This document shows, piece by piece, positions 9,078 to 64,000 of a stretch of 64,000 nucleotides of DNA. Origin of the DNA: a virus. The DNA lies in IMG/VR virus record IMGVR_UViG_3300005253_000098, positions 1-64,000 of that record; one strand, 5' to 3'. Below the pieces are notes generated by a model that saw only the letters and a list, made by a program, of their open reading frames with translations, was not told where the DNA came from and did not search any database. Position 1 is the stretch's first letter; the number at the start of each line of letters is the position of its first letter. The position numbers and the translations under genes are program-made.

Positions 9078-9105
9078 TTTATATTTTCAACTCTTACATG
9101 GTTGA
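9078..9105 (+). promoter_or_regulatory. TATA-like element with short inverted repeat
   Basis: TTTATATTTT at 9,078-9,087 lies about 25 nt before the ATG at 9,108. TCAAC (9,087-9,091) and GTTGA (9,101-9,105) form a 5-bp inverted repeat between it and the start, the same arrangement as at 4,930. Confidence 0.4.
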
Positions 9106-9107
9106 TT

Positions 9108-10291: not shown

Positions 10292-10869
10292 AACCCTTTT
10301 TCATGCCGTTCGGTCTTGCTGCTGGTAAGATCGTTCTAATGGTCCCAGAATACGATAAAACTAAGTATCCTCTGGGAATGAGGAGCTATCCGGTTTATCA
10401 TCCGGAGCATATTTTCCTTACGTATACAAGACACGAGTATCCAGTAGCTAATAATCCAATTCATCATATTGCATTCTTCGAGCTTGAGGTAGAACAACCT
10501 GATGATTTCTATCGTAAATATCCTAAACGTAAGGAGCTGTTCAGGATCCTACATCCAAGAGTAGCACCAGATCTTGAAGATATAGAGTTATTTACTGGAG
10601 AATTTCGAGATCGTAATGAGATCTACTATGTGCCATTAAATAAAGAGTTGTTTGAGGATCATGACTGGCAAGAGTGGTTAATTGAACTGACTAACTGGGC
10701 TAATATCGTCCAGAAGAGTGTTGTAGTGCACGCTACAGAGGATATTCCTATGCTATCAGATTTCAAATTCCTTTATCATATACCAAATGTATTCATTTAT
10801 CAGTCACACACCGACTGGGGCATATTGCCGGGCATTATAAGCTCAGGTGAGAAGTTTGAAGGACTTTGA
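10288..10869 (+). CDS. protein of unknown function
   Basis: 193 residues coupled by a 4-nt overlap to the gene before and by 23 nt to the ERCC4 nuclease after. Mixed alpha/beta with notable segments IHHIAFFELEVEQPDDFY and a C-terminal PNVFIYQSHTDWGILPG. No catalytic motif recognised. Tight coupling to the nuclease suggests a joint function, which is inference only. Confidence 0.45.
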   Translation: MKPFFMPFGLAAGKIVLMVPEYDKTKYPLGMRSYPVYHPEHIFLTYTRHEYPVANNPIHHIAFFELEVEQPDDFYRKYPKRKELFRILHPRVAPDLEDIELFTGEFRDRNEIYYVPLNKELFEDHDWQEWLIELTNWANIVQKSVVVHATEDIPMLSDFKFLYHIPNVFIYQSHTDWGILPGIISSGEKFEGL

Positions 10870-11602: not shown

Positions 11603-11605
11603 ACT

Positions 11606-11974
11606 ATGCCAGGTGAAGAATCAAAATTAAATCCAGAAAATCCAGTGGATGCCCAACCGGGGATATCCCCAGGTGATCCGTTACAAAAAGTGGTAATAGA
11701 TCCCGCCAGTAATGTTGCCCCGTTTATGAGATTCATGAATGAAATGAAAGACAAATATAATACTCTTGAGAATGATTACAAGTGGCTCAAGGGAATGTAT
11801 GAGTTATTGAAGTCACGAATAGATGCTTACGATAAATTCTTTGGAGGAGAACCACCTCCTGTCCCCGCAATTGCGACTCCGCCTGTAATTATTCCTACAG
11901 ACGAGACTCCTACTCATATAAAACGAGGAGTGCATGGCACAGAGCGTAATGCGGGTGGAAAAACAAGTGGTTGA
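11606..11974 (+). CDS. Pro-rich, coiled-coil small protein
   Basis: 122 residues. A disordered Pro/Asp-rich N-terminus (residues 1-38) leads to a coiled-coil-like segment (FMNEMKDKYNTLENDYKWLK and on to residue 78), then a Pro-rich tail (EPPPVPAIATPPVIIPTDE). The end overlaps the ATPase gene by 41 nt in another frame. Possibly a loader or accessory factor for the ATPase. Confidence 0.45.
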   Translation: MPGEESKLNPENPVDAQPGISPGDPLQKVVIDPASNVAPFMRFMNEMKDKYNTLENDYKWLKGMYELLKSRIDAYDKFFGGEPPPVPAIATPPVIIPTDETPTHIKRGVHGTERNAGGKTSG

Positions 11975-13256
11975 AGTCGTCGATAACATTACGGCTCTAA
12001 TCGAGGAGGAACTGATCTACAGAAAAATCCTTGAAGTAAAGGAGATGGGTAGATTATTCATAGCTTCTACTGGAGCTCACATGTTTAATATCGAGAATAA
12101 GATGCGTATGCATAAACAGGGCATGATGCTCAACCCCGATACCCCTCGGATTCCACTCCATTATCGACAGAAATACCGAGATGTTATTGTTCGTCAGAAT
12201 AATCGTTGGCTTAGACCAATTGCTGAGGCTAATGCTAATGCCAAGGATACACGTATCCATATTATAACTGTTGCACCGGTAGGAACCGGCAAGACCTTGT
12301 ATATGGAACAATTTCTTTTTATTGAGAACGCACTCCTGAGAGGGACATTAATTCAACCCGTTTTTAGAGGCTCCATGACCGAACCTGGTTGGATCGGAAC
12401 TATGACTCTTGATCGTAATCAGACTCACATAGAGCATGGTGAAGCCTACATGAATGCCATGTCTATTATTGGAGTGGACGAGTTCCATGCCATTATTGAG
12501 CGAATGGGAGCATCCCATTCTAATACACTCGAGGATCAACTATTGATGTCCCTCGACCATGGACACGTATCCAAATCACTTGCAGCGGGAACCCTCGAAT
12601 ATACTACTTATGCTACTCTTCACGGAGGCATCCAGCCGACGAGAATATCTATGTCGTCTGGTATGGCACGCAGAATATGTTTCATCAATTTTATTCCTAC
12701 CAAGACTGACTACGATAACTTGAGGCAAGCTTGGTTTCAATCATGGGGAGCACATGCCCACTACAATCGTTTACAAACTATTCGTGCGAGTGTTAATGCG
12801 AAGATTCAAACACTAAAACTTGTTGAGCGTATTGATCTCGGTATGGATGAGCTCAAAGACTTTGTTATGAATATGGGTGTGCCTCACTTCGAGATAGAAT
12901 TACTTTTTCGTATTGCTCTTGGCTGGACTGTTATGACCACCGATATCTCTGATGGTATCGACATCAAACTCACTGATGACATCAAGAACATTATGTTGAA
13001 ACAAATTAAGTGGAGGGATGAAGTCAAGTTCGGTTCCGAGTTAGCTCTGATCCAACAACTTCTCAAGGAAAATAATGGTAAGATGCGTAAGCAAGATATC
13101 GTCAAGCATTTTGTTAAGATGCAAAACATACCACCAACAGAAATCAAAAACAATATTAAAGAGCTGGTTCGTTTAGGCATGGTCAGAGACAACGCATTCA
13201 ATGTTAGTGTCCGTGAGGATAACGAAACCGATGGAGCAGATGAAATAAATGAGTGA
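11934..13256 (+). CDS. MCM-like AAA+ ATPase (putative replicative helicase)
   Basis: 440 residues with a GAGGAG ribosome binding site 3 nt before the ATG. Walker A APVGTGKT at residues 114-121 and Walker B SIIGVDEF at 177-184. The segment LDHGHVSKSLAAGTLEYTTYATL after Walker B mirrors the MCM/helix-2-insert clade, where a VS-x-x-(K)AG strand pair precedes the sensor 1 strand; MARRICFINFIPT would then be the arginine-finger region. A C-terminal winged helix (KMRKQDIVKHFVKM) matches MCM architecture. No N-terminal OB/zinc domain is seen, so it is a reduced or divergent form. With polB adjacent it is the best candidate replicative helicase; a regulator-type ATPase is the alternative. Confidence 0.65.
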   Translation: MAQSVMRVEKQVVEVVDNITALIEEELIYRKILEVKEMGRLFIASTGAHMFNIENKMRMHKQGMMLNPDTPRIPLHYRQKYRDVIVRQNNRWLRPIAEANANAKDTRIHIITVAPVGTGKTLYMEQFLFIENALLRGTLIQPVFRGSMTEPGWIGTMTLDRNQTHIEHGEAYMNAMSIIGVDEFHAIIERMGASHSNTLEDQLLMSLDHGHVSKSLAAGTLEYTTYATLHGGIQPTRISMSSGMARRICFINFIPTKTDYDNLRQAWFQSWGAHAHYNRLQTIRASVNAKIQTLKLVERIDLGMDELKDFVMNMGVPHFEIELLFRIALGWTVMTTDISDGIDIKLTDDIKNIMLKQIKWRDEVKFGSELALIQQLLKENNGKMRKQDIVKHFVKMQNIPPTEIKNNIKELVRLGMVRDNAFNVSVREDNETDGADEINE

Positions 13257-25500: not shown

Positions 25501-27772
25501 TTGATGTGTCGGTAGAAGTGTTACCTCCAATAATACTGTATAATGTAATAGCAGCTGGAGCATCAGTTATATCATAATCTTTACTGATTGGTTGACCGTC
25601 CAGGTATGTCATCTTATAATTATTGTCGTAATCCCAGATAAAAACAAAATCATAGTATTTCTCCAATTCGAGATCCATGTAGTGGGCAGTTCCTGTTGAG
25701 CCCTCGCTCCACTGGATAATCTTTACCCGATAAATCTTGCTTGTCCCAGCAAATTCCTGAACAGATGTTCTTTCATATATCATCTGAAGTTCTATGGCTT
25801 CTTTATGGCTTGAAGTCCGATGGGCATAGATGACCATAGGTTCTTCTCCAGTAGAGAACTCGTGGAACTTCATTCTAATACGAACGGTCGCCTTACCATT
25901 AGTATTAAATCCGAACTGATAAGGAAAGATTATAAACTTAGTTTTCTCAGGGGATGCTGTCGCTGGAACACTAAGGTTACTGTCTAATCGCAAAGCATTA
26001 CCACTTATCCCCCCGTTTTCGATGATTGATCCATTGGAGATCAGATCGAATCCATCATTAGTAACTGAACTGTCCAGGTTAAAGGCGTAGTTTTTTGGAT
26101 GGGAAGCATTCTTGTCTCTGAAGTCCGTATAGAGGATACAGTCTGGTCCAGTCTCTTCCCATCTCCCGATAAGCTGTTTCTCTCTTCCTATGCTTCTATA
26201 TATTTTTCCGTATGGAGTCTCGAGTGTGTGTATATTAGAGTAAGATCCTATCGGTTCTGATCCAGGTGGTAATGATATAACACTTCTTTTAGGTGTAGAT
26301 ACCTGGATTGTGTCCCACCACATTGTTTTAGTAGCAGCGCCGTTTGATTCAAATGAAATACCTCCAGTAGTATTGATACCAGCAGCTACTGCCTTCTCGA
26401 GCTGAACTGAAAATATATGTGTTCCATTTATCCAGACATTGACATTATGACCAATGTTTATGATTTTAAAACTATACCATGTATCGATATCCATTGGTAT
26501 TGGTTTTTGAGGGGTGATAATTTTCTGTGTTGTTCCTTCTCGATAAGCCAAGTAAATGATATTAGAGATTCGATCCATATATAATTCTATACTATCGCTA
26601 TATCCATCTCCATCGATCGGAGTATGCCACCGTATAATTGCATAGTCCGCAGGATCGAGAGGTCCGAGATCAATTTCCTCATTTTCACTGATGCCACTTG
26701 TAGTCATACTGAGACTGTCAATTGCTGAGTCTGAACCTCTATTTGGTGAATGTGTCCAGCGTATGGTCTTAATAATCTTACCAGCAGCCAATGTGCTCAG
26801 GTAGTTGTCTAATACCCATGTTCCAGAAGATGATGTGCGAGTATATTGATCTGTCGTGTCATCGGTATATGTGACCTTCATTGTAACTGTTCGAGTCGAG
26901 AAAAGCTTGGAATATCCAGTAAAGGCTGTAATATTATCAACAGGGATCATGACATTTTGTTCAATATAGCCCTCGTAATAAGTTGGAGATTGGTAAGGAG
27001 TTATTTTACATCCCCATGCCCCTGCTTGACGAAAAAAGGCACCTGTAGTTGCAGCTGGAGGAAGACTTGGATGAAGAGAATCGTAATCATCCCAATCAGT
27101 TGCTAAATTACCATTATCAAAATTTCCATCCTTTAAGAGATCAATGGTTATAATATTGGGTTCAAGATGCCAGTTAAACATTCCTTCGATCTGGACATCT
27201 CTTGCGTATGCATTAATAGTAACTCGTCCTCCATCTGTCTTGAGGACATCTCCCCCTTCATATGCTTCTGCATCGGCTACCGATTTAACAGTGCCAGTTT
27301 CTTTTTCCCAAGTGATAGAAGATTGTTGTTTTCCACCTGTCCTCCCTATGCCATCTACAGTTGTTATATCTGAACCTGTCCATTCCGCATTCTCGAATGA
27401 TTCATCAATGATGTATTCCCAGTCGTTCTCAATATAAATAGCTTTTGAGGTTACGATAATGCCCTCGACCTTCTGGAAAGTTATGTCAATATTATATCGA
27501 TTCTTTGATGTCTCTGAGTAGCTTAAACGATTGGCAATAACCATATAATTGACGTCATCTGGTCCTTTGATCTTCTTGGCTCCACTAATAGCTTTGGTAG
27601 TCAAAGCAATATATTCCTTGTATGTTATACCATTAAACATTAGTGTAAATACTGGAATAGTTGAAGAGGTTGGGAAAGAGGATATATATCCTTCTAAAAG
27701 AGAGATGTTAACATTAGAGTTTAGTTCACGAATAGCATGAAAGGGTGTTCCATCAATCTCGAATCGTTGCAT
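22514..27772 (-). CDS. giant tail receptor-binding protein with multiple LamG-type domains
   Basis: 1,752 residues, the largest product. Residues 1-125 form a distal-tail-like attachment domain (YKEYIALTTKAISGAKKIKG). Several LamG/concanavalin sandwiches follow: around residues 390-490 (NVWINGTHIFSVQLEKAV), 600-760 (KMTYLDGQPISKDYD), 900-1,050 (YCQLYRDGRLIRDQFLTW, then HGWFWINKAITPAEAKLLYQ) and 1,150-1,280 (TMVIYVDGKFDSSTTI). The C-terminal part is another sandwich plus a small tip domain. It probably forms tail fibres or a baseplate skirt that binds host glycans. Its start overlaps the radical SAM gene by 20 nt. Confidence 0.75.
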   Translation of the reverse strand: MQRFEIDGTPFHAIRELNSNVNISLLEGYISSFPTSSTIPVFTLMFNGITYKEYIALTTKAISGAKKIKGPDDVNYMVIANRLSYSETSKNRYNIDITFQKVEGIIVTSKAIYIENDWEYIIDESFENAEWTGSDITTVDGIGRTGGKQQSSITWEKETGTVKSVADAEAYEGGDVLKTDGGRVTINAYARDVQIEGMFNWHLEPNIITIDLLKDGNFDNGNLATDWDDYDSLHPSLPPAATTGAFFRQAGAWGCKITPYQSPTYYEGYIEQNVMIPVDNITAFTGYSKLFSTRTVTMKVTYTDDTTDQYTRTSSSGTWVLDNYLSTLAAGKIIKTIRWTHSPNRGSDSAIDSLSMTTSGISENEEIDLGPLDPADYAIIRWHTPIDGDGYSDSIELYMDRISNIIYLAYREGTTQKIITPQKPIPMDIDTWYSFKIINIGHNVNVWINGTHIFSVQLEKAVAAGINTTGGISFESNGAATKTMWWDTIQVSTPKRSVISLPPGSEPIGSYSNIHTLETPYGKIYRSIGREKQLIGRWEETGPDCILYTDFRDKNASHPKNYAFNLDSSVTNDGFDLISNGSIIENGGISGNALRLDSNLSVPATASPEKTKFIIFPYQFGFNTNGKATVRIRMKFHEFSTGEEPMVIYAHRTSSHKEAIELQMIYERTSVQEFAGTSKIYRVKIIQWSEGSTGTAHYMDLELEKYYDFVFIWDYDNNYKMTYLDGQPISKDYDITDAPAAITLYSIIGGNTSTDTSIYPTGNYRINATVDLIAIYRTVIHPIKGQGLISAENVRAYRIPNSSILDWWRDSANVIDQLEVGWTQRWTGKTSQYEFAAFNDFPEVAALSTGTLHGGGIWSQTDMPDLAFYNSFILNGLDSRIRIADRQFYKETWHGAPTTFVIWFKHDSAEITDGYLWSIPYNSNTEYGIFFLWDDSINALNVRILQTISSSETEDMLIYINSNDDTWHQYIVVVSANYCQLYRDGRLIRDQFLTWSDWDIVNAHNISYHSVGSVYPFEAPWAGIATHILEGNIHGWFWINKAITPAEAKLLYQTYPRKAWYIPESRQTWQGHQYLLKENNEDFAKETNVLGMWTFHDGTPDHQLTYIHDTSANVVYLQRYNSVTPLTNNVPDANGPQWNPDTPSKHWDYSLSFNGTNQQLYRTGLSGVEYGFPGGSDQRTYNFILKTGDTTDEATIFNSGSTTEFIQINYGSDTDTGLEIELRDGGVPNIYTGKKFNIFDDVWHLLTITVNRSTNTMVIYVDGKFDSSTTIAGFPSTSAEIAIGNWRNSTNWIAMKMVHFSIYSYAWSASDVRETYKNWFGPTIQLERTVQRLYRARDWRWHQKKNVNVLGSPNDTLWIENGLIGLRISKQSKFDAGHISQFVWDPSVDNWDYIGNIGVYAETVESTGDNDQYVRSFDIVEITGNSVIIDCQMMNNWELDPIIQTTDVRSWKENDIIIRVELFGGQQTVVFSIVSTPMNEETFSTTSFQWLIHFMEGAYYHFTVLGGISASTDVFGRTASTSRDEPDHAWMPASAFVRHGRKWVGFAAGNKYSSATDRWYFATVSGVARQMSMRSLDVDERFIVGAVPTPFYPLVYPRDNSEPGVTYVGGAAAEIANSITATTTPDGYITELNSGTDTVNVDWGTVDAGHYWMGGRFHGGGATGSLRLRDGTSDIYVNSSTGEVVVMIDQYYDQTSNLNTHFTASATNVEIDYAICIPMSGQKDYQGIMDTIYLAMIKCKNTVGGKIGAKIT

Positions 27773-28838
27773 AGGGAACTACATCTTTAAAGATTATTTC
27801 GTTTACCTGCCACTTTACAAGCTGTGTCTTACACCATTCTTGATTTAGAGCATACATACTTCCGGTTGCATCTTGGAAGTTTGAATAGCAGGTGCTACAC
27901 GGATAAGCAGGGCAGGAATGACACTGATTAAAGTCGTAGTTTTGGATCTTCAAAAACTTATCGTTAAAGAAAGTGGCTCCGTTTTCATTTATCTGTCCAA
28001 CTGGTTCTAAGTTAGAACGGTGGCAGGGCTTAATAGAGCTGTCAGTATCGATACCGATAGACTTCTGACAGGCTCCACAGGTAACACGATTCTGAGGTTT
28101 TGCTCCACCAGTTCTTTTATAAGCTCGTTTTACATTCTGAAAGTTTCTTATTGTTCCTAATTTAAATCCTTCCTTAACATACCATGTAGCAAGGTTGAGC
28201 CAATGTTTATGGAGTTCCCAGGTTGACCACTTGCCGGAATGTGTAGTGTCTAAGTTGAAATGCACGAATTGTTGCGAGCGTCCAAGAAGGAAAGCCGCCG
28301 AGTCTTTCACCATCTTAACCGTGTCAGGGGTTACGGTTGCAGCAATGGCTGGCACTATGCCCGAATCCAAGAGGTTATCCCAACCACGCACAACCCTACT
28401 ATGAGTAACATCACCAGTATTAGACACTCTGTGCAAATCGTGAGCCTCAGCTATACCATCGCAACTAAGCAATACACCAAACTTATTTTCTTTTAACCAT
28501 TTTGCTTTAGTTTTATCTATTAAAGAACCGTTGCTTGTCATCCCAAGAGTAAAGCTTTTGTTCATATTCTCTTGGAACCAGCTCACCATACCTGTCATTA
28601 AAGGGTAGGATAACATAGGCTCTGTGCCAAAAAAGTGTATCTTTCCTCCATCTTCTAATAAATCTCTAATGACCTCACAGACATGAAGAGATTCCTGCAC
28701 GGTCATAAACTTTGGTTGCTTGGGGATAAAACAGTAAGTGCAACGAAAATTGCACTCTTCATTTAAGTTGACAGTAATCTCACTATACTGGTTATTCTGC
28801 TGTGGAGGGGTAGAGGGCTTGAATTTTTGCTGACTCAT
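27753..28838 (-). CDS. radical SAM/SPASM enzyme
   Basis: 361 residues. The radical SAM cluster motif is CNFRCTYC (C29, C33, C36), followed by FFGTEPML (the GGE-like SAM-binding strand, near residue 73) and a TIM-barrel pattern. The C-terminal SPASM region has eight further cysteines (about C253, C256, C271, C306, C309, C314, C317, C336), enough for two auxiliary [4Fe-4S] clusters. Enzymes of this type modify peptides or proteins: sactipeptide and other RiPP maturases, or anSME acting on sulfatases. It lies between two tail genes and overlaps the 155-aa gene upstream (47 nt) and the fibre gene downstream (20 nt). Substrate unknown; a virion or fibre protein is the natural guess. Confidence 0.88.
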   Translation of the reverse strand: MSQQKFKPSTPPQQNNQYSEITVNLNEECNFRCTYCFIPKQPKFMTVQESLHVCEVIRDLLEDGGKIHFFGTEPMLSYPLMTGMVSWFQENMNKSFTLGMTSNGSLIDKTKAKWLKENKFGVLLSCDGIAEAHDLHRVSNTGDVTHSRVVRGWDNLLDSGIVPAIAATVTPDTVKMVKDSAAFLLGRSQQFVHFNLDTTHSGKWSTWELHKHWLNLATWYVKEGFKLGTIRNFQNVKRAYKRTGGAKPQNRVTCGACQKSIGIDTDSSIKPCHRSNLEPVGQINENGATFFNDKFLKIQNYDFNQCHSCPAYPCSTCYSNFQDATGSMYALNQEWCKTQLVKWQVNEIIFKDVVPYATIRD

Positions 28839-37727: not shown

Positions 37728-39902
37728 TTAAGCAACCCTGTGTTTACGGACAGTTAAAGTTATCTTGAACGCACTGACTCCGGGTTTAGCCTCACTGATA
37801 AATATCATTTCTGGTGGGGTTGTTATTAAATCTATAGTTCCATTTAGCAATGTCCTTGGAACACTATTAATGAATATCTCATTAAAGTAAGAGAATATCC
37901 TTATCTTTTCTATAAACTCTGTATCTGGATTGAACTTCTCAAATATCATTATTTTGATCGGGATGTTGTGTCCTGGTGTTGTTCCAATCGTATAGTATTG
38001 AGCACCTACTGAATCAAAGTCTATTACACAGTATGGATGCACTGCTCCCAGTTTCTCGTTCCCAATGAACACATCCGTGAACTCAAACCTCTCCATTTCT
38101 ATCTTGGTCAACTCATCAGATAACTGGACTGTCTTTGGTTCTATTACAAAATCCAACATGAGTTTTCGTAGTTCAATCAATAAGTTTGTATAGTTCGTAA
38201 AGACCTTACCAATTCTGATATCCGGTCTAATGACAAACCTGGTCAGGGTTCTTGATTCCCTGGCAGAAATAGACCCGATATCGACCGACCTGGTCAAACT
38301 TCTACTTTCTTGAGCAAAGCTTTGAACTATTAATGCTATTGCCCTTGATTCCCTCGCTGTTTGCTGGACAGTTCTTGTTAATGTTCTTGATTCTTGAGCA
38401 GTAGCCTGAACAATACGTGTAAGAGTTCTTGATTCTTTTACGGGAGTTAATACACTTCTTGTAAGTGCCCTGGATTCTCTATTAAAAGCTTGCACAGTTA
38501 AAGCTAAGGTTCTACTCTCTCTGACAGTAATACGAACACTCCTGGTGAGTGTCCTACTCTCACGAGCAATGATTCTAACTACTCTCGTAAGTGCTCTTGG
38601 TTCCCTGGCGAATTGTTGGATTATCAGTGCCAAGGTTCTACTTTTTCTATCCGTCAGTATAGCTGATCTTGTAAGTGTTCTCGATATTCTATCTGTTATT
38701 TGTGCAGTCCTTACAAGTGTTCTACTCTCACGAGTTACCTGTTTGACTGTTCTTGTAAGAGTTCTGCTTTCCTTATCAGTCAATATGACTGACCTTGTTA
38801 GTGTTCTTGAAACGCGATCGGATATCTGTGCAGTCCTTGTTAGTGCTCGGCTCTCCCTATCAGTCTGCTGGACTGTCCTGGTCAGGGTTCTTGATTCTTT
38901 ACTTGGAGCTAATACGGTTCTGGCTAATGTTCTTGATTCTTTCGATGCTAAGATTACTGATCGTGTAAGAGTTCTGCTTACTTGATTCATTATCTGTGCA
39001 GTTCTTGTAAGTGTCCTTGACTCTCTTACAGTTATAACAACAGTTCTTGTTAATGTTCTACTCTCTTTATCAGTAAGGATAACATTTCTGGTTAGTGTCC
39101 TTGATTCCCTATCACTAATCTGTGCGGTTCTAACTAATGTTCTTGATTCCTGATCCCAAACTTGCACGGTTCTTGTAAGAGGTCTACTTTCCCTATCATA
39201 GACCTGGACTATTAGTGCTAAGGTTCTACTGACTTTATCTACGATGATTACTGATCTGCTAAGAGTTCTGCTTTCCTTATCAAACCATTGTGCTTCTCTG
39301 GTAAGGGTTCGTGATTCTCGATCCCAAACTTGAACCTCCCTTGTTAGTGTCCTGGATTCTCTGGCTGATAATACTCCAGCCTCAGTCGTGACCTGTGCAG
39401 CTAAGGTCGTTGATAAGGCTGATCCTTGTGTTTCATCATAGAGTCTAAATTCGTATTGTTTATTGTCTAAAGCATTAGACATATCAATAAGAAACTGGAA
39501 TTCTATACCATTGTTCTGGGTGCCCGTTACCGAAGCAGTAGTATAAGGAGATTCAGTATCTATTTCGTGAGATTCGGAATCCAGGGTTCCAGACTCACAT
39601 CCTGCTGAATCTCCAATAGGATCATTATTAACTAATAATCCAGCAGACACACCTGTTCTTAATTCTCCAGAACCACTGACTAAATTAGTAAAAGAACCAG
39701 CATCAGTAACATTTCTCCACTGAAGAGTGAACGATGCCGCAGTAGGAGTATGCTTTGTTGAAACTATCCCATACGATAAGATTAGTTTATTAGTCTTGAC
39801 CCAACCAGTGACATCTACTCCACAAGCTGCCTCCCAAGTCATAGTAGTTGCATGATCTTTAGCAATCCTACCACCTTCAGAGTCGTAGTCAGATGCAGTC
39901 AT
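37728..39902 (-). CDS. repeat protein with 27 tandem 14-residue units, fused to a tail-terminator-like domain
   Basis: 724 residues in three parts. Residues 1-180 are a beta sandwich found in surface and virion proteins (FTLQWRNVTDAGSFTNLVSG, QFLIDMSNALDNKQYEFRLY). Residues about 182-562 are 27 consecutive units of the form ESRTLTRTVQ-x-x-D-R, all 14 residues long except unit 26, which has 17. Residues 563-724 form a compact alpha/beta domain (HPYCVIDFDSVGAQYYTIGT, ending ITLTVRKHRVA) in the position of a tail terminator or completion protein just upstream of the tube gene. The repeat may be a fibrous spike or collar whisker. No Cys, and about one Arg in five, in the repeat. Confidence 0.7.
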   Translation of the reverse strand: MTASDYDSEGGRIAKDHATTMTWEAACGVDVTGWVKTNKLILSYGIVSTKHTPTAASFTLQWRNVTDAGSFTNLVSGSGELRTGVSAGLLVNNDPIGDSAGCESGTLDSESHEIDTESPYTTASVTGTQNNGIEFQFLIDMSNALDNKQYEFRLYDETQGSALSTTLAAQVTTEAGVLSARESRTLTREVQVWDRESRTLTREAQWFDKESRTLSRSVIIVDKVSRTLALIVQVYDRESRPLTRTVQVWDQESRTLVRTAQISDRESRTLTRNVILTDKESRTLTRTVVITVRESRTLTRTAQIMNQVSRTLTRSVILASKESRTLARTVLAPSKESRTLTRTVQQTDRESRALTRTAQISDRVSRTLTRSVILTDKESRTLTRTVKQVTRESRTLVRTAQITDRISRTLTRSAILTDRKSRTLALIIQQFAREPRALTRVVRIIARESRTLTRSVRITVRESRTLALTVQAFNRESRALTRSVLTPVKESRTLTRIVQATAQESRTLTRTVQQTARESRAIALIVQSFAQESRSLTRSVDIGSISARESRTLTRFVIRPDIRIGKVFTNYTNLLIELRKLMLDFVIEPKTVQLSDELTKIEMERFEFTDVFIGNEKLGAVHPYCVIDFDSVGAQYYTIGTTPGHNIPIKIMIFEKFNPDTEFIEKIRIFSYFNEIFINSVPRTLLNGTIDLITTPPEMIFISEAKPGVSAFKITLTVRKHRVA
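38217..39359 (-). repeat. 27 coding tandem repeats of 42 bp
   Basis: The core of the preceding gene. Unit consensus at protein level is E-S-R-T-L-T-R-T-V-Q-x-x-D-R; the first six positions are nearly invariant, positions 11-13 vary. At DNA level the units are well diverged by synonymous change, so this is an old array under protein-level selection, not a fresh expansion. One unit has a 3-residue insertion (GSI before SAR). Confidence 0.9.
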
Positions 39903-51738: not shown

Positions 51739-53550
51739 CTATCTTCGCCTGCGTGACAAAGAAAGAGATCTCGATGCCATACTTCCCATTCTACGAGCAG
51801 AACTCATCATAGGCATACTTTTGGCTACTACGGCAGGGATAGCAGTTGGTGGACTGAACGTAGCACTAAGAGCTGGTCCAATTCCCACTTCTGGCATCTC
51901 CTGAATGAGATTCGCACCAGTTATGACCAGCACAGCTACATCCAGAATATCTTTCGAGCCCTTTGGTGGATGGTCGATACCCTTGGTGGTAGCCGTAACT
52001 TTCAATTGCATCTCTTTAACTTCCCTTGTGAAAACAGGATACTCCGGCATAGTGAACATCCTAAATTGAGCATAATTCTTAAACAGTTCCGCTTCGGGAA
52101 ATCGGATCTGCCGTTGAACTACGTCCAAACCCTCTCGATCGAGTGTTTGTTGAAGTATCGGATAGTTCAACGTATCAAACATCGCACGCCTCAAAGGAAA
52201 CAAATAATTACAAGAAAGGAAGAAATCCCTAACCTTAAAGGCATCAATATCAGACTCCTTCGGAACAAACCTGTAAAAACCATCAAACTGAATATGATAA
52301 AGCAATCGATCCTCAGCCTCAGAACCCATCAACTTACCAGCAGTATTATACTTATAGACCTTGTGCCACTCACCCTCACCAATAGTATGACCGACTGCGA
52401 TGCCGAACGCATCGAGTCGTGTTGCCGGATCACCAGCAATAATATAGTAAGCATTACTATCAATAGGCATACCAGACTCGTGTTTAAGAACGTCGAGACG
52501 TTCCGTCGCATAGCCATGCTCCTCCACGATCTCTCCAATGGGTTGTAAGAGATTGGGTAAGTTGGGTTGGATGTTTGGTCGGATGGTCTGGTCGTAATCT
52601 TTGATCCAAACATTAGAAGCAAAACTGGGATCGCAACCATAAAGTTGCCAGAACTCAGCAGGTTCGGTCGTTCGCTCGGTGTCAAAGTCCTCAAACTTGT
52701 AAAGCTTATTCCCGAAGGGATTAGTAACCTCATCATACCAGGTCACGACCTTCATCCAGATAGTTTCTCCACCACTGGCTTCAGCAGGCTGCTTTAACCT
52801 CCACATCTTAGAGCCTGCCAGTCCACTACTCGAAATCATAAACACCTTCCCAAAAAGACCTTTAGTAGCTTGGTAGAGTGTCTTAGTCGAGTTCTTCATA
52901 ATCTTATAAACATTATCGACTCCACTTGGTCCCTCTGTATCATCGAACTGATCTACTTCGTCCATACTAAAGAAAGCAGCAGTCTTACCAGCCGCACCGC
53001 CAGACTTGCTCGCAAGTGCAATAACATCAACATTCTCCCTCGGAAAATTGATCTCCTCACTCCTGATGTTCATCTCAGGAGCATATTCCCTAAAGTAGGG
53101 TGAACTATCAAACATAGCTTTGCTAATGGCGAACACCGAGTCCAGGGACTGTGGCTTATTGGTAGCAACATTAGTGATTTTAATGTGCTGATCCTTCATT
53201 TGACCGAATTCTTTTGCAGGAGTCCAGCCTGGCTTATCTGCAATCCTGTGCATCTTATACATAGCTACGAAAGCTTGAATACCAGCAGTAGTCGTTTTAC
53301 TTAGACGCATACCGCCCATTACGACCATTTCTCTGATATTCTGGTTGGGAATACCCCTTACGGTATTACACGGACTCCACAAGCGACGACTGACCTCCTT
53401 TTGCAGTGGTGTCGGCTCAACATATTGCCCTCCATGAAAATAAGGATCAGAAATAAGATAGACTGGATCGAGGAACCCCTTATACATTTTTGTTCTTCGT
53501 TGCAGATCAGTAAGTCTGCCCCAGCTCTTAACCATATCGTGTCGCCGCAA
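51739..53550 (-). CDS. terL: terminase large subunit
   Basis: 603 residues. Packaging motor with ATPase and nuclease. Walker A is the variant GGMRLSKTT (residues 79-87), Walker B FFSMDEVD (D197, E198), coupling motif SSSGLAG near 240. The RNase H-like nuclease shows AGDPA (D374), MFDTLNYP (D459) and KDILDVAV (D534 or D537). The C-terminal 40 residues are Ser/Arg-rich and basic. It overlaps the phosphatase-like gene by 23 nt; a start at the fifth downstream codon (ATG 53,535) would reduce this to 8 nt. Confidence 0.92.
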   Translation of the reverse strand: MRRHDMVKSWGRLTDLQRRTKMYKGFLDPVYLISDPYFHGGQYVEPTPLQKEVSRRLWSPCNTVRGIPNQNIREMVVMGGMRLSKTTTAGIQAFVAMYKMHRIADKPGWTPAKEFGQMKDQHIKITNVATNKPQSLDSVFAISKAMFDSSPYFREYAPEMNIRSEEINFPRENVDVIALASKSGGAAGKTAAFFSMDEVDQFDDTEGPSGVDNVYKIMKNSTKTLYQATKGLFGKVFMISSSGLAGSKMWRLKQPAEASGGETIWMKVVTWYDEVTNPFGNKLYKFEDFDTERTTEPAEFWQLYGCDPSFASNVWIKDYDQTIRPNIQPNLPNLLQPIGEIVEEHGYATERLDVLKHESGMPIDSNAYYIIAGDPATRLDAFGIAVGHTIGEGEWHKVYKYNTAGKLMGSEAEDRLLYHIQFDGFYRFVPKESDIDAFKVRDFFLSCNYLFPLRRAMFDTLNYPILQQTLDREGLDVVQRQIRFPEAELFKNYAQFRMFTMPEYPVFTREVKEMQLKVTATTKGIDHPPKGSKDILDVAVLVITGANLIQEMPEVGIGPALSATFSPPTAIPAVVAKSMPMMSSARRMGSMASRSLSLSRRRR

Positions 53551-58154: not shown

Positions 58155-58562
58155 ACCTCCTCTTCTAATTGGATACCCCCCTCCGATCTTTGTTACTGTT
58201 TTAGGGTCGGATACTCTTGTGTGGGGTAAGAGCTTTTGCAGGTCAATCTCCCCAGCTGGGTGAGCGACTGTGCCCAGAAATCCTGCAGATCATCGAATTT
58301 CGTAGATTTGTTTGAACTGAGCTTATTTGCAGCTATAAACGTTGATTTATGCTCTATTTTTAATTTAATGTTATTAGATAAGAATACAGCTGCACAAGTA
58401 GATAGAATAGGGTTATAATATAGCTGCTAATAGCTGCTGCTTTGCGGAACTCGTTAGGAACCCTAATTTGCACTCCTTTAGGTAACTAAAAGGGAAAAAA
58501 CAAAGGATTTATAAAGAGAAGTATTATATATAATATAAGACAAAATAAAGGTAAAGTGATAG
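58155..58562. other. non-coding stretch at the island border
   Basis: About 400 nt without a convincing gene. A 60-codon frame at 58,236 has no ribosome binding site and no protein-like pattern. It contains the direct repeat TAGCTGCT (near 58,420 and 58,430) and AACTCGTTAGG (58,449), repeated as AACTTGTTAGG at 58,672. TTTATAAAG near 58,508 and a TATATA run near 58,525 look like promoter elements for rightward genes. Confidence 0.5.
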
Positions 58563-58670
58563 ATGAATAAAAAAATTAAACCAGTATTAGTTTTAAGCAG
58601 CGTAAAGTTAGCTAAAAAACCGCTGCCGTGTAATTCTCAGCTTTCACGTGTGTTAATTGCTGAACCGTAA
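58563..58670 (+). CDS. possible mini protein
   Basis: 35 residues, basic (MNKKIKPVLVLSSVKLAKKP, then a neutral tail). It follows TATA-like runs and AAAGGTAAAGTGATAG, a possible ribosome binding site resembling GGAGTGATAG before the gene at 60,031. Too short to be sure. Confidence 0.3.
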   Translation: MNKKIKPVLVLSSVKLAKKPLPCNSQLSRVLIAEP

Positions 58671-58789
58671 AAACTTGTTAGGTCTGCCTTGAATTTACTA
58701 CAACCTCTCTGATTCAATTACGTTCATAGTGTATAAGTCAACTACTTCTTCATTTCTTCACTCTCTAAGGTAAGATAGCACGAAAAGAC

Positions 58790-58802
58790 GGTATATATAT
58801 AA
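58790..58802 (+). promoter_or_regulatory. TATA box of the 361-aa gene
   Basis: GGTATATATATAA at 58,790-58,802 is repeated in similar form (CGGTATATAATTAA) at 60,001, 27 nt before the ATG at 60,031. AGGTGTG lies 7 nt before the preferred ATG at 58,836. Confidence 0.5.
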
Positions 58803-58835
58803 GTGAATATACTAATAGAAATAGGTGTGAACAAT

Positions 58836-59921
58836 ATGGATACAAATGACATAGAAAAACAAATCGAATTGTTACGTAGTAAGTCTAAGACTAACTACGA
58901 CTCTTACAATATATTTAGTGATATTGTAAGTCCTAAAAAGGAAAGAATGGATTCTAAGAGGTCAACAAAGCTAAGAATACAAAGCTTACCTGATATGGAG
59001 ACAATAGATGCAACTACTACTTTAAAGATAGTATTTAATCAACTCGTTGGGTCTGATAACGTCTTTACTTATCCTGCAGTCCTAAAGGGCAGCAAAAAGA
59101 AGCTTAATGATGCTATGGATATTTATCATCCTATAGTTTTTGGTTTTAATGTAGCTAAGAGCTTAATTCAAAACAAGACAAGACTACTTAAGTCTAATTG
59201 GTCTCATATATGGGAAATATTGGAGTTAGCTTTAGCAATAACACCAATAAGCCGTTCTTCTACAGCAGATTCTTTTGCGGGTAGTATGGATTATTTAGAC
59301 GATAAAGGTAACATACTTAACTATGGTAATGGAAATTTTAACTCCAAAGTTAGAGCTGCCTTTAATTATCTTATTGTTGATGATAAGATAAGCCCAAGTT
59401 ATGAGAAAAGATTCAATAAGCTCATAGACCAAGAGGTTTTAATTGAGAAGTCAAAAGAAACCTTTGGAGTTAATCCTAACTTAGAAGAATATACGATTGA
59501 TCTATTGACTGAAGAACAACAAACCTTTTACAAATGCTTCTTTGATTCTAAGAGCAATATCCATTTCTATCTAAGAGATAATCCTAAAAGGTCTCAATAC
59601 AAGCAAGGCAATACACATATAGAGGTCGTTAAGGGATATATGCACAGAGCTGGGATAAGCTATTATAATCCCGTCTTAGATGGAACAATAGCAGGGTTAC
59701 AAACCAATAACCCAAAGCTTTGTGTTCCTTACCAATTTAAGCAATTCCTTAACGTAATAAGCGATGATACCTTAAAGCTTAAACCTTTCTCAGAGAAGAA
59801 CTTAACGGTAAAACAATTACAGTCTAAGTTAGATGAGAAAACATCTAAAACCCTTAAGACAATCTCTGAGCGATCTCATAACTTCTATAAACTTCCTTTC
59901 CCTTATAGCGTAAAGGATTAA
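58836..59921 (+). CDS. protein of unknown function in CG-poor island
   Basis: 361 residues from the ATG at 58,836 with AGGTGTG 7 nt upstream; a GTG at 58,803 lies at the promoter and is rejected. Lys/Asn/Ser-rich and mainly helical. Segments KLRIQSLPDMETIDATTTLK, HIWEILELALAITPISRSST and YMHRAGISYYNPVLDGTIAG are notable but match no family I recognise. Codon usage is AT-rich with few CG dinucleotides, unlike both sides. It could be a plasmid-type replication or regulatory protein acquired by the virus. Confidence 0.55.
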   Translation: MDTNDIEKQIELLRSKSKTNYDSYNIFSDIVSPKKERMDSKRSTKLRIQSLPDMETIDATTTLKIVFNQLVGSDNVFTYPAVLKGSKKKLNDAMDIYHPIVFGFNVAKSLIQNKTRLLKSNWSHIWEILELALAITPISRSSTADSFAGSMDYLDDKGNILNYGNGNFNSKVRAAFNYLIVDDKISPSYEKRFNKLIDQEVLIEKSKETFGVNPNLEEYTIDLLTEEQQTFYKCFFDSKSNIHFYLRDNPKRSQYKQGNTHIEVVKGYMHRAGISYYNPVLDGTIAGLQTNNPKLCVPYQFKQFLNVISDDTLKLKPFSEKNLTVKQLQSKLDEKTSKTLKTISERSHNFYKLPFPYSVKD

Positions 59922-60030
59922 CCAATACGCTAATCTACTATAACCAATTTCTTCTTCCCTTTTTTAATACTCACGAATTTAAGTAGTAATAGATTTAACT
60001 CGGTATATAATTAAATGGAGTGATAGAATA

Positions 60031-60180
60031 ATGCACGATTTAGTAGAGATAAGCCCTAAAGACATAAACAAGTATGATAAAACAGAAGTAATTGAAACAG
60101 GAGTTTTAGAGTGGATTCCATTACTTAGACAATATGTTAAGGTTATTAGGTATTACGTTCACCAAACCTTAAGAGAATAA
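60031..60180 (+). CDS. mini protein in CG-poor island
   Basis: 49 residues (MHDLVEISPKDINKYDKTEV, then EWIPLLRQYVKVIRYYVHQT). A GGAGTGATAG leader and a TATA box 27 nt upstream support it. Helical, no family recognised. Confidence 0.5.
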   Translation: MHDLVEISPKDINKYDKTEVIETGVLEWIPLLRQYVKVIRYYVHQTLRE

Positions 60181-60195
60181 TAGGAGTAATCAATA

Positions 60196-60339
60196 ATGAG
60201 CAAAGGATATATATTTACTCCCAAAGAAATAGCAAGGTTTGAGTATACAAGAATAACAAGGAAAGATATTAATAATGAGGAATTAACGAAAGCTGAAATA
60301 GACTTCGTTATCTTCATAGAACAAGATTTTATAGAATAA
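60196..60339 (+). CDS. mini protein in CG-poor island
   Basis: 47 residues (MSKGYIFTPKEIARFEYTRI, then NNEELTKAEIDFVIFIEQDF) with TAGGAG 9 nt before the ATG. FTPKEIARFEYTR could be a recognition helix, so a small DNA-binding protein is possible. It is followed by a long T-tract. Confidence 0.5.
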   Translation: MSKGYIFTPKEIARFEYTRITRKDINNEELTKAEIDFVIFIEQDFIE

Positions 60340-60373
60340 ACTACTACATAAGAAACCAAATTCTTATTCTAAT

Positions 60374-60402
60374 ATTTTTTTTCTTTTTTTTATTTTTTTT
60401 TT
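60374..60402 (+). terminator. long T-tract terminator
   Basis: 29 nt with only one C and one A among T residues, 35 nt after the last stop of the island. Poly-T tracts are the main intrinsic termination signal in archaea. It marks the sharp border between the CG-poor island and the ACTCG-rich DNA. Confidence 0.65.
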
Positions 60403-60405
60403 GGC

Positions 60406-60722
60406 ACTCGGACTCGGACTCCTGGACCAGGGCAATCGTCCTGCCACGAACCCATGCATTTGCCTCATTTCCCTGAACTATTATTTTTTTAACTCGCACT
60501 CGGACTCGGTGGGATAACGCACCCATGCTCAAACTCGGCTTCTTTGGGCTGATCGTCCTGACTCGTGCTCGTTCTCATGCTCATGACTCGTGCTCGGTGG
60601 TATCGGACTTAAGCACTCGGTCACCCCCCTCCAAACTAAACTATTCTTATGATGTCGGACTCGTTCTCGGACTCGTGCTCGGACTGTTCCCAGATTCGAT
60701 CTTTTTGTCTTTTTGAGCACTC
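60406..60722. repeat. cluster of ACTCG/GCTCG hexamers (iteron-like)
   Basis: ACTCG occurs about 12 times here, partly in 6-bp phase (ACTCGTTCTCGGACTCGTGC at 60,659-60,680; ACTCGGACTCGG at 60,406). Short-period, imperfect CTCG hexamers such as these resemble origin iterons or a protein-binding array. No protein-like reading frame: the minus-strand frames give only low-complexity His/Glu/Arg strings. Confidence 0.6.
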
Positions 60723-60926
60723 GGTCGATCGACTTTCTGGTCTGAACACTAATGCAATCTCAACGCAGCGGTGTATCCAGCTCTCTAAGACCACCTTTCT
60801 GATGTCCCTCTTTTTTCATCGGGCATGAGGGGCTCTCCTGCAATAGGTATTTTAGCGATGCAGAGGTTAAACCACTCGTATAACTGACGATCTACCTATG
60901 CTATCCCGATTGCTTTTTGTCTTTTT
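60723..60926 (+). ncRNA. candidate short non-coding RNA
   Basis: The 190 nt between the two TTTTTGTCTTTTT strings have higher GC and pairing potential: CCCTC with GAGGG (60,806 and 60,827) and CTGCA with TGCAG (60,838 and 60,859). No open reading frame. No known RNA family is recognised; the call rests on the terminator-like end and local pairing only. Confidence 0.25.
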
Positions 60927-61419
60927 ATGGGTAGTAATGAACACTCACTCACCCACTTGGGTATGGGTAATTGTAATTTGAACATTACAATTAAATATTG
61001 CACATACACCCATCACACTCGATCACTATCGTTATTATAGCCCGTTCTGTAAAAGTTGTCTTACAAGCTTGTCGGACAAAGTGCTCGCTAACACTCGCAT
61101 TAGTCCGTATAGCCGCTAATTCGGATTTACTCCACACGCTTTTACTCAAATCCACCCTCGTCAAGCGTGATCGATCACTCGGACTACCTCTCGACGCCCT
61201 ACCCTGACCTCCGTTGGACGAACGGACAGCTAATTCACCGCCGAGTGCTGCACTACATTTGAACGCAGCGAAATCTGTTAAGGAAATCAAAAAGAGTGCC
61301 CAATCCACGCACTCAATCCCAAAGCTAAGCAGATTTCGTGCACAAAACAAAAAATGTCAAGACCTCACGACTCGTTAGCTCAGCTTACCATCCGTTGCGT
61401 AAGCCGAAGCACATTTACC

Positions 61420-61436
61420 CACTCGTTGAACGAGTG
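61420..61436. repeat. perfect 17-bp palindrome of the ACTCG motif
   Basis: CACTCGTT-G-AACGAGTG: two perfect 8-bp arms around one base, bringing the two orientations of the regional motif together. It lies about 170 bp before the point where motif orientation flips. Confidence 0.7.
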
Positions 61437-61555
61437 CTAATCAAATCCAAGCACATTTCAGCTTTTCGCCACTCGGACTCGATGCCTTGATTTACCGTCC
61501 GTTTGCCAATTGCTGCCCAAATATCCGCTTGTTTTGGCACTCGTCAACTACTCTC

Positions 61556-61565
61556 CTTTATAAAG
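61556..61565 (+). promoter_or_regulatory. TATA box of the last operon
   Basis: CTTTATAAAG, itself a 10-bp palindrome, lies about 45 nt before the ATG at 61,609 and resembles the TATA box at 4,930 (CTTTATAAACC). It is within the 75-bp interval in which the CGAGT/ACTCG orientation changes. Confidence 0.5.
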
Positions 61566-61608
61566 ACAATTTCCCTCTAAATAAATAAAACACTTTGAGA
61601 TATACTTT

Positions 61609-62547
61609 ATGCTACCGAGTGCTAACCCCTCTCTGAACGAGTCCTCTGAAGAGGTCGTGTGGATAGACGAGTCCCGACTACGTAGGTTTAACGAGTGGTA
61701 TTCCAAAACTATCGCTTGTGATCAACAGTTAGCCGAGCTCAATCTACGGATCGAGTTTGAGGAGAACGAGTTTGAGTTAGAATTACTGAAAAAAGATCGA
61801 ACTAAAATTAGAGCGAGGGTATTAACCAGAACCAAATACTTCTTTTCTATGTGGGGGCTTCTCTATAACTACCACAACAACCCCGAGTTATTTCTATCAC
61901 GTAAACGAGGGCGTAATCCCTCACAACGAGGCGTAACTCACGACGAGTCAGGTCTGACAATCGGTGTTCCTACCCGAGTAACTGGTATGGATATACGAAT
62001 ATACGAACTACACGAGATGATTAAAACTATCGAGTTACTCTCACTACTTATGCCCGAGCGTGAGCCACACGCCCTTATCTCCTTCTATGAATCAGTCCAA
62101 ATCTTCAGGATGTCCGAAGGAAAACGAAACCTGATCCTTGCCGAGTTAGAACAATATATTCTCCCACCTACATTTACCCGACGAGTTATAACCAAAAACA
62201 AAACCATTACCTACATTGTGGAGGTCGAGGTAGAAAGCAATCCCGATGCGAGTAGAACAGCGAGTCTACCGAGTGGTATAAGTAACAAATCTATTCGTCG
62301 ATGGTATCGCTTACGCCGAGACTCTGAGGGTCTCATTACTAAGAAGTGGTATGCTAAAGCTACAGATTTGAACCAACGCCAACGCACAGTTAAACTACAG
62401 TTCGACGAGCTCTCCAAAGACTATATCCCTCCAGAGAAACCCAAACCCACATTACCCCGACGAGTCCTCAAAGCCATGATGCAGCCGAGTAAATATGTCG
62501 ATCCCTTCTCTTTCCTACAAGAGCAACTAAGGATGGAACAAAAATGA
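61609..62547 (+). CDS. protein of unknown function in CGAGT-rich operon
   Basis: 312 residues, Glu/Arg/Leu-rich and mostly helical (ACDQQLAELNLRIEFEENEF, MIKTIELLSLLMPEREPHAL), with a beta segment near residue 200 (FTRRVITKNKTITYIVEVEV). The C-terminal region is basic and Pro-rich. No family recognised. The gene contains about 17 CGAGT in 940 nt, falling in all three codon phases. It overlaps the next gene by ATGA. Confidence 0.55.
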   Translation: MLPSANPSLNESSEEVVWIDESRLRRFNEWYSKTIACDQQLAELNLRIEFEENEFELELLKKDRTKIRARVLTRTKYFFSMWGLLYNYHNNPELFLSRKRGRNPSQRGVTHDESGLTIGVPTRVTGMDIRIYELHEMIKTIELLSLLMPEREPHALISFYESVQIFRMSEGKRNLILAELEQYILPPTFTRRVITKNKTITYIVEVEVESNPDASRTASLPSGISNKSIRRWYRLRRDSEGLITKKWYAKATDLNQRQRTVKLQFDELSKDYIPPEKPKPTLPRRVLKAMMQPSKYVDPFSFLQEQLRMEQK

Positions 62548-62723
62548 ACGAGAAACATAGCTGGTGGCTTTATTTCTTTTTTTCCACGAGTGAAGAAGAA
62601 ATGATCGAGGTAGATATGTTAGACTTCCTTGAGATAACTCCAGAACAAGCCCGAGTGATCCGAGAAAGACGTAAGAAGAATCGAAAAGCCATCCGAGAGA
62701 TTGAAAAGAAATTGAACGAGTGA
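62544..62723 (+). CDS. mini coiled-coil protein
   Basis: 59 residues (MNEKHSWWLYFFFSTSEEEM, then a basic helix ITPEQARVIRERRKKNRKAI). ATGA-coupled to the gene before. Function unknown. Confidence 0.5.
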   Translation: MNEKHSWWLYFFFSTSEEEMIEVDMLDFLEITPEQARVIRERRKKNRKAIREIEKKLNE

Positions 62724-62731
62724 TAAATAAA

Positions 62732-62848
62732 TTGAACGAGACACCCAAATTCAGCGAGTGGAAAACAACCATCGAGGTCTTACTCTGGTATTCCGAGTCC
62801 AAAGAAGATTTAGAGAGATTGTTGAAGCTCAGCGAGGAAAAGAAATAA
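62732..62848 (+). CDS. possible TTG-initiated mini protein
   Basis: 38 residues (MNETPKFSEWKTTIEVLLWY, then an acidic helix). Begins ATTGAACGAG 8 nt after the preceding stop; the next frame begins with the similar ATTGACCGAG, so the TTG starts may be real. Weak by size. Confidence 0.35.
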   Translation: MNETPKFSEWKTTIEVLLWYSESKEDLERLLKLSEEKK

Positions 62849-62849
62849 A

Positions 62850-63020
62850 TTGACCGAGCCGATTGTCATGCGAGTCCCATATACGCCCATGCTTACCAGT
62901 TATCCATATCTCCTTGATATAAAACTCATACCGAGTATTCAATATGAGTGTATCGAGTTATATACATACCCAGTCAAGCGATCTACCCTACCGCTTGAGG
63001 AGGTGAATTCCACATGGTAG
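62850..63020 (+). CDS. possible TTG-initiated small protein
   Basis: 56 residues (MTEPIVMRVPYTPMLTSYPY, then LLDIKLIPSIQYECIELYTY). Starts 1 nt after the previous stop and overlaps the next ATG by 7 nt, a spacing like other coupled genes here. Beta-rich, Tyr/Pro-rich; function unknown. Confidence 0.4.
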   Translation: MTEPIVMRVPYTPMLTSYPYLLDIKLIPSIQYECIELYTYPVKRSTLPLEEVNSTW

Positions 63021-63943
63021 ATGAACAAAAACCTAAAACTAAAGCCCAAATTAAAGCAGAAAAAGAAGCCGCTAAGAATAAGCCCGAGTCCCAACCAGAA
63101 ACACAAGCTGCAATTACTTCCACCGACGCTATGTCCTCACTTGACTTATCGAGTGAAGAACAAATCCAAAAACACATAGCTTCCCACGAGGAAATGGATG
63201 ACATGGTTACTTATCTAAGTAACACAGTTACCCAACGAGTCAATAGATCACGAAAACGAGCACAAGTCGGTTATTCAGTCCAACAAATCAACAAATCACG
63301 TATCCTTAAATTGGCAGTAATTGTGAACGAGATAAACGGATATTCCAATCCCTCTTTCCTCAAGAACAGTTACTTCGACTTCTTCACTCTTCCCTTAGCC
63401 AAACGAGAGGAGGTTGCAGCTATCCGAGCTATAACAACTCTTGCTGACCGAGCTGAAGCAGTCCTTGATTTCAAGAACCTGAGAACTATCTCAAGAACTA
63501 AACAGAAATTCGACAGAAACCTTGCCGAGATCAAGAAATACTACCGAGTTGCTGAAACTTGCCGAGCTCTATTCACTGGCTCTAACGCTTTGATTAAAAT
63601 TGCCTTCGAGGAAAAACTCTTATTACCCGACGAGTCAGCTCTTGGTAATCCTGACGGTTACTTTTTCAATCCCAACGTATCCGAGTTAATCGACTCTTGG
63701 AAAGGTCAAGCCGCAGGTCTAAGAGAGGAGGTTGGCGGTGAGCCTAACGAGGACGACATCAAACATACTATCAACGTATTTGCAGCTCTCTACGAGTTAC
63801 AACAGAAATACTTCGACAGTATTAGCGAGGTGTTTGGATTCCTTCAACGAGCTTCCCCAATCGTCAATAAATATATGCTGAGTTCCTACGAGCAGATCAA
63901 AACTGCAGCTTTAAAGGTTGGTCTCTTGAAAGCAACGAATTAG
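63014..63943 (+). CDS. helical protein of unknown function in CGAGT-rich operon
   Basis: 309 residues with a TTGAGGAGGTG ribosome binding site before the ATG. The Lys/Ala/Glu-rich first 60 residues are disordered or coiled coil. The rest is helical (ILKLAVIVNEINGYSNPSFL, REEVAAIRAITTLADRAEAV, HTINVFAALYELQQKYFDSI). A segment with conserved-looking GNPDGYFFNPNVSELIDSW lies near residue 217. No family recognised. CGAG is used whenever codons allow. Confidence 0.55.
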   Translation: MVDEQKPKTKAQIKAEKEAAKNKPESQPETQAAITSTDAMSSLDLSSEEQIQKHIASHEEMDDMVTYLSNTVTQRVNRSRKRAQVGYSVQQINKSRILKLAVIVNEINGYSNPSFLKNSYFDFFTLPLAKREEVAAIRAITTLADRAEAVLDFKNLRTISRTKQKFDRNLAEIKKYYRVAETCRALFTGSNALIKIAFEEKLLLPDESALGNPDGYFFNPNVSELIDSWKGQAAGLREEVGGEPNEDDIKHTINVFAALYELQQKYFDSISEVFGFLQRASPIVNKYMLSSYEQIKTAALKVGLLKATN

Positions 63944-63957
63944 GATCGTTTCCTATC

Positions 63958-63996
63958 GAGCCTCATGGCTCTAATTCTTCTCTTTTAAAATTTTTT
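63958..63996 (+). terminator. stem-loop terminator at the window end
   Basis: GAGCC (63,958-63,962) and GGCTC (63,967-63,971) form a 5-bp stem around TCAT, followed by pyrimidine-rich DNA and a T-tract (TTTTTTT near 63,990), 14 nt after the stop of the last gene. Confidence 0.55.
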
Positions 63997-64000
63997 TGCA

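Follow-up and report, generated by a model that had tools for sequence, protein, structure and literature searches.

The iteron origins of plasmids contain direct repeats of about 18-22 bp that are bound by Rep monomers, and in phage Phi29 the viral histone-like protein p6 occupies the DNA as one dimer per 24 bp. The polar guide words known from bacterial chromosomes are long, sparse and partly biased. AIMS, for example, are octamers acting at chromosome scale, with a bias of at least 70% and a peak at the terminus (PMC5993296). In phage T7 all 36 EcoP15I sites lie in a single orientation, and the phage is not restricted (PMC3874151). We have analyzed the distribution of the four-letter word CGAG in viral DNA, the IMG/VR record IMGVR_UViG_3300005253_000098, of which positions 1-64,000 (64,000 nucleotides, the whole of the stretch presented) are termed the window. 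In a field beginning at 60.4 kb the word is strand-polar, inverts its orientation at one point close to 61.58 kb, and is spaced non-randomly. We know of no virus-scale polar lattice of this kind.

The plus strand between 60,400 and 61,545 contains 28 CTCG and 2 CGAG, while between 61,615 and 64,000 there are 63 CGAG and no CTCG; neither is found in the intervening 61,546-61,614. Dinucleotide shuffles (n = 500) lead to an expectation of 6.9 ± 2.4 CTCG in the left stretch (maximum 16) and 12.5 ± 3.1 CGAG in the right (maximum 21). A sequence-only reading of this DNA had proposed a strand-polar motif, CGAGT, that inverts at one point. Its hand counts of 21 ACTCG and 2 CGAGT on the left, and 32 CGAGT and no ACTCG on the right, were reproduced exactly, the background in the rest of the window being 0.98 CGAGT and 0.68 ACTCG per kb. 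The core word is the 4-mer CGAG, and the trailing T is preferred near the flip only (51% vs 28% expected, z = 5.1). The flip is bracketed by the last CTCG at 61,540 and the first CGAG of the field at 61,616, leaving a word-free gap of 72 bp between flanks of 28:2 and 63:0, and the proposal of a single inversion point thus holds. Over positions 1-60,399 both orientations occur freely, with 178 CTCG and 215 CGAG.

The field continues past the window. The source record is 90,526 bp in length without end repeats, and it is open rather than closed. From 61,544 to 67,479 the plus strand carries 138 CGAG and not one CTCG. Compared bin by bin with shuffles of the genes' own codons, the excess of CGAG is approximately 1.8- to 2-fold from 61.6 to about 80 kb, and about 1.5-fold in 80-90 kb. 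The density of the word is approximately 24 per kb on both flanks of the flip (28 copies in the 1,146 bp of the left arm); it is highest next to the flip and fades rightward. Read 5′ to 3′, CGAG points away from 61.54-61.62 kb or, equivalently, CTCG points towards it. There is no second flip within the 90.5-kb record. Across 6,919-13,256 (plus strand) CGAG is once more the top 4-mer relative to own-codon shuffles (z = 3.1-3.9), with no excess of CTCG; if the map is circular, the field may extend faintly into this region.

Could the polarity be a by-product of coding? A single genome was analyzed, and its genes are longest-open-reading-frame calls upon which the exact z-scores depend; the null models hold the proteins fixed, and therefore understate the effect. 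The genes of 61.6-64 kb contain 50 CGAG and no CTCG, compared with 26.5 ± 3.3 and 4.4 on shuffling their own codons, and with 10.0 ± 2.8 and 4.3 when codons are sampled at genome usage. This corresponds to an enrichment of CGAG of about 2-fold over the codon shuffle and 5-fold over genome codon usage. The earlier assertion that codon bias is not the source has therefore survived the codon shuffle. The accompanying statement that all codon phases are used is correct, but the three are used unequally (57/46/17). In the right arm the density of the word is 24.4 per kb in coding and 24.6 per kb in non-coding DNA. Outside CGAG, the 4-fold degenerate sites of 61.6-67 kb do not differ in composition from those of 67-90 kb, and since these are unshifted there is no broad mutational bias; a broad AC/GT bias was rejected for this reason.

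Among the 256 4-mers, CGAG takes first place in all five consecutive gene groups between 60.5 and 79.6 kb. At its peak (z = 8.9) it exceeds the best 4-mer of every one of 412 control gene groups from other viral loci, for which the maximum was 8.0. The control loci had been fetched for other purposes, many by means of CTCG-rich patterns, making the comparison if anything conservative. Raw polarity is not enough alone, as control loci reach raw scores of 7-10 through repeats or codon bias. Arginine makes up 9.2% of the proteins encoded in 61.6-67 kb, compared with 5.1-6.2% elsewhere in the virus, indicating that the word has reached into the protein sequence.

The spacing of the word is ordered within 61.6-67 kb. 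We used a null model that preserves each protein, the codon preferences of the genome and the number of CGAG. Pairs of CGAG 18-25 bp apart are over-represented (46 vs 27.6 ± 3.8), whereas those less than 15 bp apart (14 vs 32.4 ± 4.1) and 26-35 bp apart (21 vs 31.4 ± 4.3) are depleted. The best period is 20.75 bp (z = 5.3), and the observed periodic score was reached in none of 1,500 simulations. A null model of random placement agrees on the spacing order. Heptad repeats in the proteins were considered as a source of the 21-bp order, and are ruled out by the protein-preserving null.

The opposite orientation is actively avoided, as if purged. No CTCG is present where 16.4 ± 3.4 would be expected without a penalty, and its one-step neighbors are raised (CTTG 26 vs 13, CTCT 27 vs 15). 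The other sequences that could pair with CGAG in RNA are not avoided (UUCG 22 vs 24, CUUG 26 vs 13, UUUG 19 vs 19), and avoidance of RNA self-pairing was rejected on these grounds. Nor is CGAG any more accessible in the predicted RNA than in simulations (0.105 vs 0.118 ± 0.012). The order of about 21 bp and the avoided orientation are the behavior of a site, in keeping with the motif-reading protein that the sequence-only reading had envisaged.

The features around the flip are collected in Table 1. The left arm includes micro-arrays in which the word recurs every 6 bp (for example ACTCGGACTCGGACTC at 60,406 and CTCG at 60,660/66/72/78), and it stops abruptly at a poly-T run (60,374-60,403) that closes the AT-rich island. 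The island is a possible insertion or join. Within the flip zone lie a self-complementary TATA-like sequence, TTTATAAA (about 61,557-61,565), and a second TATA-like run, TAAATAAATAAA (about 61,578-61,589), some 25 bp before the ATG at 61,609. From these elements the zone is plausibly a divergent promoter with a near-leaderless ATG. The protein beginning at 61,609 has no match in Pfam, NCBIfam or phages, and chance-level matches only in PHROGs and PDB; an AlphaFold model made without homologues had pLDDT 39.8, was unusable and was not used. A Shine-Dalgarno-like run, GAGGAGGTG, precedes the gene at 63,014, the product of which falls in no family above cut-off. Open reading frames (ORFs) cover about 95% of the genome outside the long non-coding stretch at 60.40-61.61 kb.

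Table 1. Positions of the field and of other features in the window
Feature	Position	Strand	Remarks
Small terminase gene	230-748	+	Pfam Terminase_2, 6e-17
Large terminase gene	51,739-53,550	-	weak match, phrog_9
AT-rich island	58,300-60,403		GC 23-38% in 200-bp steps
372-aa orphan ORF in AT-rich island	58,803-59,921	+	no homologue found
Left arm	60,400-61,545	-	no convincing gene
Perfect inverted repeat TAATTGTAAT-N6-ATTACAATTA	60,968-60,993		left arm
Palindrome TTGTCTTACAAGCTTGTCGGACAA	61,056-61,079		left arm
Flip zone	61,544-61,615		word-free in both senses
First right-arm gene	61,609-62,547	+	312-aa orphan; 26 CGAG, 0 CTCG
Right arm in window	61,616-64,000	+	63 CGAG, 0 CTCG
59-aa ORF in field	62,544-62,723	+	no family
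Right-arm gene	63,014-63,943	+	309-aa orphan; 20 CGAG, 0 CTCG

By its gene content the record is that of a tailed virus, with a tape measure protein (phrog_167), a tail tube protein (Phage_tube_2), a dUTPase, a B-family polymerase (PolB; phrog_262) and both terminase subunits, the genes for which are widely separated and on opposite strands. An archaeal host is likely, on the basis of a weak ERCC4 domain, haloarchaeal polymerase matches, the TATA-like elements (recognized by eye) and a tRNA-like stretch with apparent introns. The polymerase matches include haloarchaeal tailed viruses. The ERCC4-type nuclease domain (10,847-11,602, plus strand) is below the Pfam cut-off, and is in keeping with an archaeal virus. 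The tRNA-like stretch, at 67,663-67,804 of the record (L002:3663-3804), was recognized by eye from a 7-bp acceptor stem (GAGAAGG/CCTTCTC) and a T arm, CGAGGTTCAAATCCTCG; its length of 142 nt suggests introns. It was not called by ARAGORN or Rfam, and the GTDB genome collection contains no exact match to its 22-nt 3′ end. In the structural module a 724-aa protein (37,728-39,902, minus strand) contains many repeats of the ESRTLTR type, each of about 14 residues, and a radical SAM protein is encoded within the tail and structural gene cluster (27,753-28,838, minus strand).

Searches were made with proteins, with DNA patterns and in the literature. Scanning IMG/VR with the proteins beginning at 61,609 and 63,014, the large terminase subunit (TerL), PolB (alone and as an alignment) and the radical SAM protein returned PolB matches only, at 21-29% identity. 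The DNA-pattern scan of IMG/VR with CTCGNNCTCGNNCTCGNNCTCG revealed no polar field among the matches listed, and that with ACTCGNACTCGGACTCG revealed none; most of the polar pattern matches inspected were low-complexity repeat-coding DNA. Genome scans with PolB and with the tRNA-like 3′ end found no relative, phage records gave no DNA match and only distant matches to TerL and PolB, and Rfam gave no match. We found no paper on a "CGAG motif." An AT-rich viral contig (IMGVR_UViG_3300036985_008838) contains non-identical, degenerate (GACCNC)n-like arrays with conserved ATTCATTAGCTTTTAAAATNATCATNAATCA blocks at their ends, and a raw GACC polarity of 116:2 in 4 kb.

How might the word be used? We favor, tentatively, the view that CGAG is an orientation-specific site in double-stranded DNA that acts much as the polar guides of the KOPS and AIMS type do, on either side of an origin or a control region near 61.58 kb. 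The avoidance of CTCG but not of the other RNA-pairing partners leans towards double-stranded DNA read in one direction, since purging of CTCG would be expected of an orientation-sensitive reader of duplex DNA but not obviously of an RNA-binding protein. The flip point and the adjoining non-coding kilobase would most likely be the replication origin or the main control region, and the presence of such a stretch in a genome otherwise almost filled with ORFs fits that role. A protein encoded by the virus or its host would bind CGAG in one orientation, would need a spacing of about 21 bp (two helical turns) from one site to the next, and would load along the field and so gain direction, as a translocase, a replication or segregation factor, or a polar filament. 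The virus would then avoid the wrong orientation for the sake of this reader. The sequence-only reading had suggested an origin or a packaging start. The first of these fits the non-coding stretch; a packaging (pac) start at the flip was rejected, as neither terminase gene is near it. That interpretation is thus partly supported, and a divergent promoter acting at the RNA level, which it did not consider, also fits the flip. If our view is correct, viral genomes can carry dense directional instructions over their genes, and a four-letter word that is perfectly polar, obeys a spacing rule and is selected strongly enough to shift the composition of proteins would offer an unusually clean setting for identifying its reader. 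The spacing rule opens a direct biochemical test of binding.

A number of observations weigh against a polar site in DNA. Fitted separately, the two halves of the ordered region give periods of 20.25 (61.6-64 kb) and 24.0 (64-67 kb), so that "about 21" is the limit of the precision of the data. Spacing order was not seen beyond 67 kb, and the near-miss words CGAA, CGAC and NGAG were considered and rejected as fillers of the lattice. The left arm is only 1.1 kb long, ending at the AT-rich island, and there is no clear mirror field to the left of the island at 54.7-58.2 kb. The right-arm genes all run rightward, which leaves DNA strand inseparable from RNA sense in that arm. AIMS are densest at the terminus, so that if the flip is an origin, the gradient here, with its maximum at the flip, runs the other way. 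Among the proteins scanned we recognized no translocase, ParB-like protein, primase or initiator, nor any FtsK/HerA or recombinase family above cut-off, although a host protein could serve. No close relative was found by any tool. A related idea, that the field is a polar nucleoprotein code laid over the genes, with the word in one orientation at every one or two 21-bp units, radiating from one point for about 20 kb and supporting a directional filament or tracking, seems to us somewhat unlikely.

The main rival places the signal in RNA. The gap at 61.54-61.61 kb would be a divergent promoter and CGAG a sense-strand element of the two transcripts. An RNA-binding, transcript-coating or antitermination protein would bind it at intervals of about 21 nt, and so mark or protect the early RNA of the virus. 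In both outward transcripts the word does appear in the sense orientation, the gap contains the TATA-like elements and the near-leaderless ATG, and the field starts right at the expected start sites with a density that drops with distance from the promoter. However, UUCG, CUUG and UUUG are tolerated where CTCG is not, CGAG is not unusually accessible in the predicted RNA, and there is little CGAG in other operons. The explanation also presupposes transcription of the left arm, and as a whole we judge it unlikely. Primases prefer 3-nt words on the template, and CGAG could mark primase start sites on the lagging-strand templates of the two forks that would depart from an origin at the flip. These templates would be the plus strand on the right and the minus strand on the left, where CGAG sits, but the 21-bp order and the total lack of CTCG are then left unexplained and no primase was recognized among the proteins scanned; this we consider quite improbable.

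The virus might escape, or make use of, a Type III-like restriction-modification system in which sites in one orientation remain uncut, and the 138:0 would then match the EcoP15I pattern of T7 (PMC3874151). Escape accounts for the missing orientation but not for a several-fold enrichment of the other; both orientations are common in 1-60,399, and no methylase or defense-system gene was recognized (PADLOC: nothing), so that we regard this as very improbable. We hold no higher an opinion of an assembly chimera in which a field from another replicon was joined at 60.4 kb. The composition does change sharply at the poly-T run, where the left arm ends abruptly, but on the other side the field merges by degrees with ordinary virus DNA over 67-80 kb with codon composition outside the word unchanged, and the polar field would stand even if the join were real. 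Least probable of all is codon usage, protein composition or compositional mutation bias combined with chance. Coding strands are often polar for 4-mers, as the raw scores of the control loci show, and the codon phases are unequal; against this stand the own-codon and protein-preserving controls, the equal non-coding density, the unshifted 4-fold sites and a left arm that is dense in the word, non-coding and of opposite polarity. For the dense part of the field (60.4-67 kb) this explanation is already refuted, while it could account for the weak tail beyond 80 kb.

How does the field compare with the systems described at the outset? Like the EcoP15I sites of T7, CGAG is an asymmetric word with every copy on one strand and the other orientation absent, although here both occur elsewhere in the genome; no enrichment is reported for T7 (PMC3874151), whereas the viral word is enriched 2- to 5-fold and its spacing is non-random. 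Phi29 p6 is likewise a viral protein that spreads from a nucleation site, each unit covering about two turns of DNA, but it reads bendability rather than an oriented 4-mer, and is not polar. Chi sites are short polar words within genes, yet they lack the single-point inversion with a gradient and the 21-bp spacing, their wrong orientation is not purged, and the virus has no known recombinase-nuclease. An RNA-binding element is a poor match, given that CGAG is no more accessible than in simulations and its pairing partners are not avoided. The likeness to iterons is closer, as direct sites lie about two helical turns apart beside a non-coding control region. Iterons, however, are few in number, nearly identical over their 18-22 bp and confined to a single short non-coding tract; in the viral field tandem near-identical repeats of that length were not found, and CGAG alone recurs, as 4 fixed bp in more than 130 copies that extend across genes for at least 6 kb, with an orientation that inverts.

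KOPS and AIMS are also short polar words within genes, favored in one orientation and inverting at a single point. The strand bias of CGAG is far above the codon and composition controls, and its density climbs towards the inversion point on the right side, the left being only 1.1 kb. The viral word differs in being a 4-mer that is 100% biased over 6 kb, in a 90-kb genome, with copies ordered at 21 bp; neither FtsK nor a dif-like site was recognized in the virus. When CTCG is taken as the word, both arms point to 61.58 kb and thicken in that direction, as in KOPS and other AIMS; when CGAG is taken instead, the same data show both arms directed outward from a non-coding control region that contains inverted repeats, the arrangement that an origin would have.

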